This document shows, in pieces, positions 2,653-15,878 of a stretch of 21,948 bases of DNA. A program made the position numbers and the translations under genes. Location of the stretch: NCBI GenBank assembly GCA_913009315.1, contig CAJVZA010000028.1, positions 1 to 21,948 of the forward strand, given 5' to 3'. The stretch comes from an uncultured Hippea sp. GTDB taxonomy: Bacteria > Campylobacterota_A > Desulfurellia > JAADFJ01. A model generated the notes under the pieces. That model was not told where the DNA came from. It saw only the letters and a program-made list of their open reading frames with translations, and searched no databases. The stretch's first letter is position 1. The number at the start of each line of letters is the position of its first letter.

Positions 2653-3039
2653 TCATTGGAAACATGGCACTGTAACTTCCCCAATCTTTCTCCAAACAAC
2701 TTTAACCTTCCGGCCGCATCTCAGCTTTGCAAAATCGCAATCTACAATATTAGTCAATAAATGCGGACCTTCTTTCAGCCTGACAACCGCAACAACATAG
2801 GGAACCTTATTTTTGAAATTGCTGTTGAATACCGCATGATATATAACAAAACTATAGATTTCCCCTTCGCCTTCGGAAACAATATAGCTCGTTTTCATAG
2901 AATGGCATTTGGGACATATTATTGATGCCGGCCATCTAACATGACCGCATTCATCGCACTTTTGAAATCTTAGTTGATGATTGCTGCAGCCTTCCCAAAA
3001 AAAGACCGTGTCTGCGGTAGCAATTCTGTTAATTTCCAT
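2653..3039 (-). CDS. DUF35 Zn-ribbon/OB-fold partner protein
   Basis: A 128-residue DUF35 protein made of an N-terminal rubredoxin-like zinc ribbon and a C-terminal OB fold. The zinc ligands are visible as C28-x2-C31 and C42-x2-C45 (QKCDECGH, ICPKCHS), and residues 55-128 form the beta-rich OB part. In characterised systems, DUF35 proteins bind thiolase-fold proteins tightly and contribute to the acyl-CoA site, as in ChsH2(DUF35)-Ltp2. Here its ATG follows the thiolase stop directly (TGA-ATG), and the Shine-Dalgarno AGGAGG is formed by the two terminal Arg codons of the thiolase gene. The two chains should therefore be made in step. That they form a complex is inference from family and coupling. 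Confidence 0.88.
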   Translation of the reverse strand: MEINRIATADTVFFWEGCSNHQLRFQKCDECGHVRWPASIICPKCHSMKTSYIVSEGEGEIYSFVIYHAVFNSNFKNKVPYVVAVVRLKEGPHLLTNIVDCDFAKLRCGRKVKVVWRKIGEVTVPCFQ

Positions 3040-4230
3040 TCATAACCTCCTCAATATCAAACATGAGTGAGTTTGCAAAACACCTCCGTTATCACTGCAC
3101 AAAATTATCTCAGGCTTATTCGTTCCGGTTTTTTCTCCTAATTGTCTTTCGCCGCAACGTCCCATAAGCTGCATGACTCCTTCGGTGATCGGAGTAAGTC
3201 CCATAAAATATGCTTCCGAAAGCAGACCTCCTGAGGTATTTACCGGCATTTTACCTCCAGGAGCAGTTTTTCCATCCTTAAAAAACTCATTACCTTCGCC
3301 GGGGCTGAAAAACCCGTAATCCTGCATTGTTATCTCAACCGTATAAGTGAAACAATCGTATATTTCGCATGCATCAATTGCATCAAGTTTTATATCGGCC
3401 ATGCCAAACGCCGTTTCCGATGCCTTTTTTGCTCCCGTGGGTCCGCTCATATAGGCGGACTGATGAATATCGACCGACGGATTCGCCTCTCCGACTCCCA
3501 TAATGGCAACTACCGGATGCCGAAGATCTCTTGCCCTCTCCACAGAAGTTACAACGCATGCCCTGCCGCCATCAGATATCAAACTTGCATCCAGTCTTCT
3601 GAAAGGTTCGGCAAGATACGGAGAATTCATATATTGGTCATAATCAAGAGTTTTATTATGCATTGCAGCCATTTGGTTAAGATTCGCCCATTTTCTCTGA
3701 TTTACCGCTATTTCCTTCCATGTATCAGGTCCGGTTTTAAACTGATGCATAGCTCTTCTTGCCGCCATTGCATAGTCTGCAACAAATCCAAATTCTCCAT
3801 AGGCAAAGTTATATGCAGGTGATTCCGAATGTGTTGCTTCATTGATAAACATCCTCTTGCCGGAAACGGCATTATCGGCATAAATTATCAGAACATAGTT
3901 GCAAAAACCGGCCTCAAGCAAAGAAACGGCCTGAATAAACTGATGTCTCGGGCAATAAGATTCCTGACTCAAAATAGCAGGTGTTATTCCCAAATGCTGG
4001 GCAACGAGATATGGAGTTGCTTCCGGTTCATCATTAGCGGCGGGGAACTGCCTGTAGCATATGAGAGCATCTATCGCATCTTTTTTTAAACCGGCATCTT
4101 GTATGGCATTTGCACCTGCCTCGGCATAAAAGCTCATTGCGGTTCGTCCGGGAATCTTGCCTTGAGGTGTATAACCGACACCGACAATAGCATATTTGTC
4201 CCTTAACTTTCTAATACGCGTATAGTTCAT
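3040..4230 (-). CDS. SCP-x/Ltp2-type thiolase-fold protein, probable acyl-CoA aldolase
   Basis: A 396-residue thiolase-superfamily protein of the SCP-x/lipid-transfer clade. The start is ATG at 4230: AGGAGG (4241-4236) lies five bases before it, whereas the GTG at 4236 overlaps that site. The N-terminal YAIVGVGYTPQGK and the late segment NTSGGLLSEAYFMG are family marks. Classical thiolases carry a GHP histidine in that late loop. Here the position is Tyr341 in LSEAYFMG, and a second candidate tyrosine occurs at EIYDCF (Tyr291). This pattern resembles the steroid side-chain aldolase Ltp2, where tyrosines replace the thiolase catalytic residues. A retro-aldol role on a beta-hydroxyacyl-CoA is thus more likely than beta-ketothiolysis. 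It is translationally coupled to the downstream DUF35 gene. The substrate is unknown, and no steroid genes are in the window. Confidence 0.8.
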   Translation of the reverse strand: MNYTRIRKLRDKYAIVGVGYTPQGKIPGRTAMSFYAEAGANAIQDAGLKKDAIDALICYRQFPAANDEPEATPYLVAQHLGITPAILSQESYCPRHQFIQAVSLLEAGFCNYVLIIYADNAVSGKRMFINEATHSESPAYNFAYGEFGFVADYAMAARRAMHQFKTGPDTWKEIAVNQRKWANLNQMAAMHNKTLDYDQYMNSPYLAEPFRRLDASLISDGGRACVVTSVERARDLRHPVVAIMGVGEANPSVDIHQSAYMSGPTGAKKASETAFGMADIKLDAIDACEIYDCFTYTVEITMQDYGFFSPGEGNEFFKDGKTAPGGKMPVNTSGGLLSEAYFMGLTPITEGVMQLMGRCGERQLGEKTGTNKPEIILCSDNGGVLQTHSCLILRRL

Positions 4231-4275
4231 GGACACCTCCTGATTTAAAAAATAGATGAAAGTCCGTTATCATTT

Positions 4276-11946: not shown

Positions 11947-12726
11947 ATGAATCAACGGAAACTGCTGATGATGGATCTTGAAAGGGCAATGAAAAAACCT
12001 GTTTCAGAAAGATCCTGGGTTATGATGATTGATGTTCGGAAATGCGTTGGCTGCACAGCTTGCGTGGTTGCATGTGCCGCAGAAAATGTTTGTTCGCCGG
12101 GAACGTCCTATAGGTGGGTTTTTGATCAGGAATTTGGCGATTATCCCAATGTAGATAGATTTTTTATGCCTACAAACTGCCAGCAGTGCGACAATCCTCC
12201 CTGTAAAAAGGCAGCTGACAAATATGCAAAAAATGCCATTACAAAAAGAAAAGACGGGATAATTGTGTTTGACTATGTAAAATTTGCAAATAATAAAAAG
12301 GCCGGAAAGGCTGCAAAGGCTGCATGTCCATATAATGCAATTTCTTACGATGGGGGTGATTTCTATACAGATGGAACACCAAAAAGAGAACCGTATGAAA
12401 CCAGAAGATTCTATGCATACGGGGAATTACTTACAAGAAAAAATACAACAGGTTCAATAAGAGCATGCACTTTTTGCGTGGATCGGTTAGATAACGGCAT
12501 GCTGCCTGCATGCGTGACAACCTGTATCGGAGATGCGATGTATTTTGGCGATGCAAATGATAAACATAGTTTAGTATATAAGCTCTTAAAGGAAAGCAGA
12601 TGGAATCCATATGGTAAATTGGGTACAAAACCGCGCGTGCATTACATAGGATATGCACGAAGATCGAATATAGCATTTGCAACTAATAAAACCTGTGAAA
12701 TTTGCCACTCCAAAGGAGGTGAATAA
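11947..12726 (+). CDS. Iron-sulfur electron-transfer subunit of a molybdoenzyme (TtrB/PsrB-type), three-cluster variant
   Basis: A 259-residue ferredoxin-type subunit that should pass electrons to or from the molybdoprotein encoded next. Motif I (C33, C36, C39, C43) and motif IV (C174, C177, C189, C193) are complete. Motif II has C78, C81 and C86 but Ala at 90, the expected fourth Cys. Motif III keeps only its last Cys (C127), with Lys, Gly and Ala at 117, 120 and 123. By the family's pairing rule these absences remove all four ligands of a single cluster and leave three clusters intact. The tail carries CEICH (250-254), a c-type haem motif. There is no signal peptide, so it probably exports with its Tat-tagged partner. 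A strong AAGGAGG precedes the ATG, and the final KGGE codons supply the next gene's ribosome site. Confidence 0.92.
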   Translation: MNQRKLLMMDLERAMKKPVSERSWVMMIDVRKCVGCTACVVACAAENVCSPGTSYRWVFDQEFGDYPNVDRFFMPTNCQQCDNPPCKKAADKYAKNAITKRKDGIIVFDYVKFANNKKAGKAAKAACPYNAISYDGGDFYTDGTPKREPYETRRFYAYGELLTRKNTTGSIRACTFCVDRLDNGMLPACVTTCIGDAMYFGDANDKHSLVYKLLKESRWNPYGKLGTKPRVHYIGYARRSNIAFATNKTCEICHSKGGE

Positions 12727-15700
12727 TGAAAAAGCTGATAGATTGCGATATCCTTAATAAAGAAATCACAAGGAGAGCATTTTTTAAATCAAGTGCGCTT
12801 CTTGGCGGATCGGTACTTTTAACGAGTCAGATCGATTTGGCTTTCGGCAACATTAAAAATGCCGAGGCATCGGTTTACTATTCATTGTCAAAACCTGAAA
12901 ATATTATTTATTCGGTCTGTCTGCAATGCCACACCGATTGCCCGATAAAAGTAAAATTGGAAAATGGTGTAGCTGTCAAGATTGACGGCAATCCGTATTC
13001 GGCTCAGAATATGGTCCCGAATCTTAAGCAGAATACTTCACCTTCGGTAGCAGTAAAAATCGATGCCAAACTATGCCCGAAAGGTCAGGCCGGAATTCAA
13101 TCACTTTATGATCCTTATAGAATTATTAAGGTACTTAAACGAAACGGCCCGAGAGGCAGCGGCAAATGGAAAACTATTTCATTTGACAAGGCAATCGGTG
13201 AAATTGTTGAAGGCGGCTATCTTTTTAAAGATATAGGAGAAAGCCGTTACGTTGACGGGCTCAAAAAAATCTACAAAATGAGAAATCCCAAGCTATCAAA
13301 AAGTATGGCATCCGATGCCAAAAAAATCACCGAAAAAAAGCTCAGCATCAATCAGTTTAAATCAAAATACAGAAACAATCTTGATCTTTTGATAGATCCT
13401 GATCATCCTGATCTCGGAGTTAAAAACAATCGGTTTGTATTTATGGCCGGTCGAATCGAACATGGGAGAAAAGAATTTGCCAAGCGGTGGACTACCGGAA
13501 GCTTCGGGTCGGTAAACTTTTTTGAACACACAGCTATCTGCGAACAATCTCATCATATTGCATACAAACAGGCAACAAGACAATACAGCAACGGCAAATG
13601 GGGCAAACCGCAAACAGAACAGATGAAACCCGACGCTTTGAATTCGAAGTTTGTAGTTTATTTCGGAACAGGTTTTGCAGAAGCGAACTTTGGTCCTACA
13701 AATATGGCTGCCAAAATTACGAATAGATTGGCCAAGGGTGAGATGAGTATAGCCGTAGTTGATCCGAGATTCAGCAAGAGTGCATCTAAGGCATCAAAAT
13801 GGCTGCCTGTTGAGCCGGGAACTGATGCTGCCTGCACCCTTGCAATGATTAGATGGATCATAGTAAACAAAAAATATGATAAAGAATATTTGAAAGCCGG
13901 AAATAAGGCTGCGGCACAAAAAATTGGCGAAACAACCTGGTCTGATGCAACGCATCTCGTACGTATAGAAGATGACGGTCCTGGAAAGTTTTTGAGAGCA
14001 TCTGATATTGGCTTGGGAGAAACCGAGCTTGTAGTAGTTAACGATGATGATAAACCTGAAAAGGTTTCTGATGATGCTGTTTTCGGAAGGCTTGATTATG
14101 CCGGAAGCGTTAATGGCATAAAGGTTAAAACAGCTTTCAGACTTCTGAAAGAACAAGCGTTGTCAAAGAATATGACTGAATGGTCAAAGGCATGCGGCGT
14201 TCCTGTAAAAGATATAGAGTGGGTTGCAAAGGAATTTAGTTCTCACGGTAAACGCGTGGCAGCTGAGTTATACAGAGGACCCGTCAAACATACTAACGGT
14301 TATTACAACGCTCAAGCTATAATTGCCTTAAATATCCTAATGGGAAATATAGACCACAAGGGAGGTCTGACTACCGGAGGCGGACATTGGCATGAAGACG
14401 GAAGCAAGCCGGGTCAACCGTTTCCTATGAAACTTTTGAATCCTTATAAGCTTCATTCATTCGGGACAAAACTTACAAGGGAAGGATCAAGATATGAAGA
14501 GAGTACCCTTTTTGAAGGCTATCCTGCAAAACGGACATGGTTTCCATTCTCGGGTAATATTTACCAGGAGATACTTCCGTCTGCTTCAAGCGAATATCCG
14601 TATTCGGTAAAAGCGTTATGGATTCACAAAGGAAGTCCGGGTTTATCTATTCCTGCAGCAAACGAAATGCTCAAAATTCTCTCCAGTACAGAGGATATAC
14701 CGCTTCTAATTGCTGATGATATCGTAATTGGCGACACATCGATGTACGCAGATTATATATTCCCGGATTGCGCGATTTGGGAAAGATGGGGAATTCCTCA
14801 TACATCCCCGGATGTGACTCAAAAATCGGCCAAAATAAGACAACCTACAGTAACTCCTCTCACTGAAGTTGTTGAAATAAACGGTGAGAAACAGCACTGC
14901 TCTATGGAAGCGGTAATGTTCGCAATTGGCGAAAAATTGAATCTCGGTGGAATCGGAAAAAATGGGTTTGGAAATGGCATTGATTTTACAAGACCTGAGG
15001 ATTTTTATCTGAAAATGGCAGCAAATCTTGCTTATGGAGATAAAGCCAACGATTCCGTTCCTGATGCATCGGAAGAGGAGCTGAAATTATTCATTAAATC
15101 GAGACGATATATGGGACCCGCTGTCTTTGATATAGACAGATGGAAAAAAACAGTCGTCGATTCAAAACTGTGGAAAAAGGTGATCTACATTCTCAACAGA
15201 GGAGGCAGATGGGAAAATTTCAGCAAAAGCTTTCTGGGAAACAGCGGTTTTGTTGTTCATAAATATGCAAAAGGCGTAAATTTTTATGCTGAATCCGTAG
15301 CATTGGAAAAACAGAGCTTTACGGGAAAAAGATTCAGGGGAATCACCAATTTTGAACCGATTAAAAATGCTGCAGGAGCCGTTGTGCACGATAGCGATTT
15401 TCCGCTGAAACTCATTACATATAAGGACATAAGAGGCGGCCAGTCAAGAACCTTGCCGCAGGATTATTGGTTATCTCTTACATTGCCCGAAAACTACATA
15501 TTGATAAATCGCAAGACAGCAAAGGATGCAGGTTTGAGAGACGGAGATATGGCGCAGATTATATCAAGCACAAATACCGATGGCGCATGGCATCTTCCCA
15601 ATCGAATCGACAAGGAGATAACGGGGAGAATTAGAGCTGTTGGCGGAATGAAACCGGGTGTTGTTGCGGTAAGCTGGTCTTTTGGCCATTGGGGATACGG

Positions 15701-15878
15701 ATCATCGGATGTTGATATTGACGGAGAGATTATTAAGGGCGATAAAAGAAGGGCAACAGGTTTATGTCCCAACGCTGCAATGAGAGTTGACTCCGCTCTC
15801 AAAAACGCCCCCATGAGCGATCCTATAGGTGGTAGTGTATCATTTTATGATACGAGAATAAAACTTTTGAAAGCTTGA
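12726..15878 (+). CDS. Tetrathionate reductase-like molybdopterin oxidoreductase catalytic subunit (TtrA family)
   Basis: A 1050-residue DMSO-reductase-family catalytic subunit. The Tat signal TRRAFFK (RR at 16-17) followed by a hydrophobic stretch predicts export to the periplasm. Ligands for the N-terminal [4Fe-4S] cluster are C65-x2-C68-x3-C72 and C117. C272 in HTAICEQSH sits where TtrA carries the molybdenum-ligating Cys. Length and many segments recall TtrA: KWKTISFDKAIGEIVEGG, SWxxATHLV-like TWSDATHLVRIED, EDFYLKMAANLAY, LNRGGRW, FTGKRFRG and FPLKLITYKD. The clade also contains reductases for other sulfur and selenium or arsenic oxyanions, so the substrate is open. Its ATG overlaps the upstream stop (TAATG). 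No NrfD/TtrC-type membrane anchor or chaperone gene adjoins; a terminator follows. Electron exchange with the quinone pool must use something else. Confidence 0.9.
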   Translation: MKKLIDCDILNKEITRRAFFKSSALLGGSVLLTSQIDLAFGNIKNAEASVYYSLSKPENIIYSVCLQCHTDCPIKVKLENGVAVKIDGNPYSAQNMVPNLKQNTSPSVAVKIDAKLCPKGQAGIQSLYDPYRIIKVLKRNGPRGSGKWKTISFDKAIGEIVEGGYLFKDIGESRYVDGLKKIYKMRNPKLSKSMASDAKKITEKKLSINQFKSKYRNNLDLLIDPDHPDLGVKNNRFVFMAGRIEHGRKEFAKRWTTGSFGSVNFFEHTAICEQSHHIAYKQATRQYSNGKWGKPQTEQMKPDALNSKFVVYFGTGFAEANFGPTNMAAKITNRLAKGEMSIAVVDPRFSKSASKASKWLPVEPGTDAACTLAMIRWIIVNKKYDKEYLKAGNKAAAQKIGETTWSDATHLVRIEDDGPGKFLRASDIGLGETELVVVNDDDKPEKVSDDAVFGRLDYAGSVNGIKVKTAFRLLKEQALSKNMTEWSKACGVPVKDIEWVAKEFSSHGKRVAAELYRGPVKHTNGYYNAQAIIALNILMGNIDHKGGLTTGGGHWHEDGSKPGQPFPMKLLNPYKLHSFGTKLTREGSRYEESTLFEGYPAKRTWFPFSGNIYQEILPSASSEYPYSVKALWIHKGSPGLSIPAANEMLKILSSTEDIPLLIADDIVIGDTSMYADYIFPDCAIWERWGIPHTSPDVTQKSAKIRQPTVTPLTEVVEINGEKQHCSMEAVMFAIGEKLNLGGIGKNGFGNGIDFTRPEDFYLKMAANLAYGDKANDSVPDASEEELKLFIKSRRYMGPAVFDIDRWKKTVVDSKLWKKVIYILNRGGRWENFSKSFLGNSGFVVHKYAKGVNFYAESVALEKQSFTGKRFRGITNFEPIKNAAGAVVHDSDFPLKLITYKDIRGGQSRTLPQDYWLSLTLPENYILINRKTAKDAGLRDGDMAQIISSTNTDGAWHLPNRIDKEITGRIRAVGGMKPGVVAVSWSFGHWGYGSSDVDIDGEIIKGDKRRATGLCPNAAMRVDSALKNAPMSDPIGGSVSFYDTRIKLLKA

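Follow-up and report, generated by a model that had tools for sequence, protein, structure and literature searches.

The stretch of DNA that we analysed (21,948 nucleotides, hereafter the window) encodes on its forward strand an iron-sulfur subunit, B, and a molybdopterin catalytic subunit, A, whose start overlaps the stop of B, A beginning at the last base of B. The features of the pair are as follows:

11947 to 12726, + strand: B gene, an open reading frame of 259 aa encoding a tetracubane-type Fe-S (beta) subunit that lacks FS4 and has a C-terminal CXXCH
12043 to 12075, + strand: motif I, C33-C36-C39-C43, Cys1-3 of FS1 and Cys4 of FS2, intact
12178 to 12216, + strand: motif II, C78-C81-C86, Cys1-3 of FS3, kept; Cys4 replaced by A90, an FS4 ligand lost
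12295 to 12327, + strand: motif III, Cys1-3 replaced by K117, G120 and A123, FS4 ligands lost; C127, Cys4 of FS3, kept
12466 to 12525, + strand: motif IV, C174-C177-C189-C193, Cys1-3 of FS2 and Cys4 of FS1, intact
12694 to 12708, + strand: C250-E-I-C253-H254, a CXXCH motif for c-type heme attachment, carried by a short extension at the C-terminus
12726 to 15878, + strand: A gene, a TtrA-like molybdopterin catalytic subunit of 1050 aa with a Tat-like signal (ITRRAFFKSSALLGG), matched by NCBIfam TtrA and Pfam Molybdopterin

Tetracubane beta subunits of complex iron-sulfur molybdoenzymes (CISM) have four motifs with 16 ligand cysteines for four clusters. B has 12 of the 16, and the missing four are precisely those of FS4, the distal cluster, while the sets of FS1, FS2 and FS3 are full. 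The original prediction that a single cluster was lost at A90, K117, G120 and A123 was borne out in the reading frame and in relatives of B, and the retention of C78, C81, C86 and C127 was confirmed in the 259-aa frame. Three cysteines of B do not belong to this set of 12, namely C49 and the C250 and C253 of the CXXCH at the end of the protein (TNKTCEICHSKGGE). The 4Fe-4S dicluster domain of CISM beta subunits was recognised by Pfam Fer4_11 (PF13247; 74.8 bits, cut-off 26.2). The best NCBIfam matches of B were TtrB, DsrO and ArrB, every one far under its cut-off (TtrB, NF011569, 112.2 bits against a curated 416; ArrB, NF041715, 101 bits against 450), and TtrA (NF011567) scored 451.8 bits on A, below its curated cut-off of 1750. 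In the tetracubane fold, FS4 is the cluster farthest from the Mo site and closest to the membrane subunit, as in NarH and FdnH. A review places the quinone site of PsrC near a [4Fe-4S] cluster of PsrB (PMC8076601).

An AlphaFold2 model of B, built with 39 sequences, had a pLDDT of 88.6; the emptied FS4 region was well ordered (94-98 over residues 81-130), and the last ~15 residues, which form the tail, were of low confidence (51-58). Its best structural matches were PsrB (Z 22.4; 2.3 Å over 191 residues) and ArrB (6cz7, Z 21.9), followed at lower scores by BthL (Z 18.6) and FdhB (Z 17.6-17.9). The structural alignment with FdnH extends to FdnH residue 242, shortly after which the membrane helix of FdnH presumably starts, and since the alignment ends just ahead of that helix, the tail of B may exit at the membrane-facing pole.

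The NrfD-type membrane subunit of TtrBCA operons has no counterpart beside B, where the B-A junction is overlapping. Two NrfD genes were found in the window's genome (87.6% complete); an orphan NrfD as the missing partner was rejected, as both sit beside other Fe-S subunits. Export and heme attachment appear to be within the host's means: A has its Tat-like signal, and cytochrome c assembly proteins (PF01578) are encoded in the window's genome, as in all 17 of the 17 host genomes searched. B in the window has no signal of its own, and a simple pattern detected Tat-like signals on the B proteins of L035, L101, L102, L075 and L088. Elsewhere in the window, positions 2653 to 4236 on the minus strand encode a ChsH2-type OB-fold/zinc-ribbon protein adjoining a thiolase-like protein; the two are arranged like a thiolase/DUF35 pair.

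We classified 40 sampled loci by FS4 ligands, C-terminal tail and operon, which gave 16 FS4-deficient loci, including the window, and 24 FS4-complete loci. In relatives at 80, 79, 63, 62 and 58% identity, each from an assembly of its own, these four ligands are missing too, and the 12 remaining positions are conserved apart from Cys2 of motif I in three of them. Chance and sequencing or assembly error were ruled out as the source of the missing ligands, which are the same in independent assemblies. Those three, at 58-63% identity, have Asp at this position, an FS1 ligand, giving CVGD (L033:953-1726, L034:4995-5768 and L073:363-1118), and their FS1 may be a [3Fe-4S] or an Asp-ligated cluster. 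Remoter FS4-deficient members (41-54% identity) lack some or all of the four FS4 ligands. Close relatives with all 16 cysteines, which would have spoken against the original prediction, did not turn up: four-cluster relatives were found only at about 50% identity or below; one of these (L003/L089) comes from the same genus as the window. As the loss is shared by the relatives at 80-58% and the 16 cysteines appear only farther out, the loss is conserved in the group and four clusters were likely the ancestral state. A further sample of the same phylum gave no new case, plasmid sequences gave relatives below 60% identity only (38% being the best among the matches listed), and viral contigs gave none. 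Downstream of L103:5750-6505, the match to the A gene is split in two, which may reflect a frameshift or an assembly error.

The loss is graded within the group. L081/L082 lack only Cys3 of motif III, and L074 and L077 retain Cys4 of motif II. The original prediction had read the clean set of missing ligands as a product of selection and not of decay; the loss is indeed conserved in the group, but the clean set is the endpoint of a graded loss, which is better explained by FS4 becoming less necessary once the membrane partner was gone than by selection against the cluster.

FS4 deficiency goes together with the C-terminal CXXCH, which is present in 14 of the 16 FS4-deficient proteins, B included, versus none of the 24 FS4-complete ones; the whole short extension is missing from four-cluster relatives. 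Fisher's test gave p = 5e-9, a value that ignores shared descent and overstates an association that the tree traces to one or two events. Within the tail only the two Cys and the His are conserved, the His being invariant (14/14), and the rest varies in length and sequence, with 8 to 17 residues between the last strand and the CXXCH; the L103 protein terminates at the His. Judging from the motif, which is that of c-type cytochromes (C250-C253-H254 in B), the tail most likely holds a covalent heme c. A search of the alignment for a group-specific axial ligand brought out M74 only, weakly (Met in 12/14), and neither a cytochrome domain nor an axial-ligand partner for the tail was identified. The two tail-less FS4-deficient proteins are L075 and L088. 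Near L088, which has neither FS4 nor tail, no cytochrome gene was found, and the tail is thus not obligatory. The FS4-less, tail-less B-A pair of L075 (1-7015) is flanked by genes with 4, 3 and 10 CXXCH motifs, and its genome (G263) has both kinds of locus, L075 and a B-NrfD-A locus (L076). In literature mostly outside the subscription journals, we found nothing on a heme-motif tail, on CXXCH with TtrB or on a link between such a tail and FS4 loss.

The second correlate is the membrane subunit. None of the 16 FS4-deficient loci, all of the order B-A, has NrfD beside B, whereas 21 of the 24 FS4-complete loci do, 18 of them as B-NrfD-A with NrfD directly after B and three with a weaker upstream NrfD match. 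Where a locus lies close to the end of its contig, as those of L073 and L033 do, the absence refers to the B-A slot, which is empty, and a distant NrfD is possible. The three FS4-complete loci without NrfD are L105, L114 and L115. For the trees, the FS4 region and the tail, which hold the trait columns, were left out of the alignment. Without outgroups, the FS4-deficient sequences all lie on one side of a branch (92/89); rooted with outgroups, they form one clade (93/83) nested among FS4-complete sequences, and their sister group (90/84) consists of the very three loci that keep FS4 and have no NrfD, which makes it probable that loss of the anchor preceded the erosion of FS4. In L114 (4260-4568) and L115 (7756-8064), a small triheme-c gene with three CXXCH motifs lies just upstream of B. 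All members with partial FS4 ligand loss (L081/L082, L074 and L077) have the tail, and the tree allows one gain of the tail and one loss, in view of the tail-less L075 and L088. These relations lend moderate support to the simplest order, in which NrfD would have been lost, a cytochrome contact adopted, and then the tail gained and FS4 eroded. The original prediction was thus right about which cluster is missing but incomplete about the cause, as loss of NrfD and the C-terminal CXXCH, the main correlates, had escaped it.

Several known systems resemble the pair in part. ArrAB (6cz7) is likewise an AB molybdoenzyme, of a neighbouring branch; its gene order is AB, and its beta subunit has four clusters although the enzyme, which we take to be soluble, has no anchor, so that anchor loss does not force FS4 loss. 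In the beta subunits of Desulfovibrio FdhAB (6sdr_B and 1h0h_B, from D. vulgaris and D. gigas), FS4 ligands are missing at the same four places as in B, and FdhAB is also a periplasmic AB enzyme without a membrane subunit, the whole enzyme containing four [4Fe-4S] centres (PMC9774666). It differs in being a formate dehydrogenase and not of the Ttr/Arr branch, the match shows no C-terminal CXXCH, and its Z score is below that of PsrB. The Pelobacter transhydroxylase subunit BthL (4v4c_B) also has no FS4 ligands and keeps FS3, but it works with another catalytic partner and in another reaction, and no heme motif is present in the match. BthL, named originally as the three-cluster precedent, does lack these ligands, but it is not the only one, as the two FdhB subunits show. 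B shares with FdhB and BthL the three-cluster pattern (FS4 ligands gone, FS1-FS3 kept), which does not imply common descent, and cluster loss alone is therefore an already known kind of change. With TtrBCA the pair shares its best NCBIfam matches, TtrB and TtrA, and the position of B before A; it differs in scoring far under both cut-offs, in having no TtrC, in its 12 instead of 16 ligand Cys and in its CXXCH tail. TtrAB without TtrC, an operon without a membrane subunit as in the window, is noted for Desulfobulbus propionicus, Caldimicrobium thiodismutans, Dissulfuribacter thermophilus and others (PMC9751629), in passages that mention neither missing ligands nor a heme motif. The TtrAB of those hosts perhaps belongs to the same clade as the window's pair.

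We consider it probable that the window's B-A is a soluble, cytochrome-linked AB molybdoenzyme that has lost NrfD and FS4, with the tail heme c as its most likely outer relay. In the mechanism that we infer, B and A would form a soluble periplasmic enzyme of the tetrathionate/arsenate/polysulfide reductase branch. Its ancestor would have been a membrane complex, B-NrfD-A, in which electrons passed from quinol through NrfD, FS4, FS3, FS2, FS1 and FS0 to Mo. Once NrfD was lost, the membrane-facing FS4 would have become needless and its ligands eroded, and electrons would now come in or go out close to FS3. Most members would use the tail heme c in place of FS4 as the outermost relay, in contact with c-type cytochromes of the periplasm; the path would run between Mo and these soluble cytochromes by way of FS0, FS1, FS2, FS3 and the tail heme. 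B, signal-less here, would be exported together with A via Tat. With confidence slightly better than even, we extend this to the clade as a whole, which would have swapped an Fe-S cluster for a covalent heme on the tail of B in passing from a quinone-linked membrane complex to a soluble cytochrome-linked enzyme, the window's subgroup carrying the heme on a signal-less B through Tat co-export.

The tail can also be read otherwise. In a soluble enzyme without FS4 it could be a thiol arm for sulfur or arsenic species, or another metal site: the substrates of the family are oxyanions of sulfur or arsenic, DsrC and SoxY have Cys arms at their C-termini, and the tail is flexible in the model. A thiol arm, however, does not need the invariant His after the second Cys, the motif and its spacing match c-type heme sites, and the hosts encode cytochrome c assembly proteins; we regard this reading as unlikely. 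The three Cys that B has beyond its 12 ligands could, together with H254, in principle restore FS4 or place another Fe-S cluster there, an outcome that the original prediction had named as contrary to it. Yet C49 is not conserved in the clade, L081/L082 have the tail though they keep most FS4 ligands, and the spacer is variable in length and predicted to be flexible, which makes such a cluster very improbable.

Plain decay, by which FS4 was lost neutrally, the tail is incidental and soluble cytochromes are reached through FS3 alone, as in FdhAB, would be consistent with a functional FdhB on three clusters, with the graded loss and with the absence of both FS4 and tail from L088 and L075. We think it quite improbable, as the CXXCH is kept in 14 proteins with identities to the window's B down to ~41% while the tail around it diverges. 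It is hardly credible that the pair still belongs to a membrane complex with NrfD encoded elsewhere; the genome is incomplete, which leaves room for such a gene, but each of the two NrfD genes found has its own Fe-S gene, and the B-A order without NrfD recurs at 16 of 16 FS4-deficient loci.

The substrate may be a sulfur or an arsenic oxyanion, the neighbouring genes in relatives being no more than suggestive. Upstream of B-A, L031 (886-4614), L032 (750-4553) and L034 (1-3302) have genes for PhnD-type sensors whose Cys pattern resembles that of AioX. They have the Tyr/Cys/Ser/Ser/His/Asp pattern reported for the arsenic sensors AioX/ArxX/ArrX (PMC5908839), in a comparison confined to these sensors, suggesting control of these three operons by an arsenic oxyanion; the Cys is present too in the sensor of a four-cluster relative (L106). 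L031 also encodes a sigma-54 regulator and a histidine kinase, and a rhodanese gene follows. Other neighbours include an ArsC-like gene (L033), ArsR- and ArsP-type genes (L073) and SBF-family transporters (L077 and L103). Next to the window's B-A, there are no sensor, Ars-type, SBF or rhodanese genes.

Our analysis suggests a finding stronger than the loss of a cluster, namely that a membrane anchor and FS4 were exchanged for a heme-motif tail. The heme on this tail is a yes/no prediction for biochemistry. FS4 is tied to membrane contact, and soluble Ttr-type enzymes, which might otherwise pass in annotation for plain tetrathionate reductases, gain a mark at the sequence level. The series from four clusters with an anchor, through four without it and a partial FS4 with a heme-motif tail, to FS4 gone would make readable a route from a quinone-linked to a cytochrome-linked respiratory complex.
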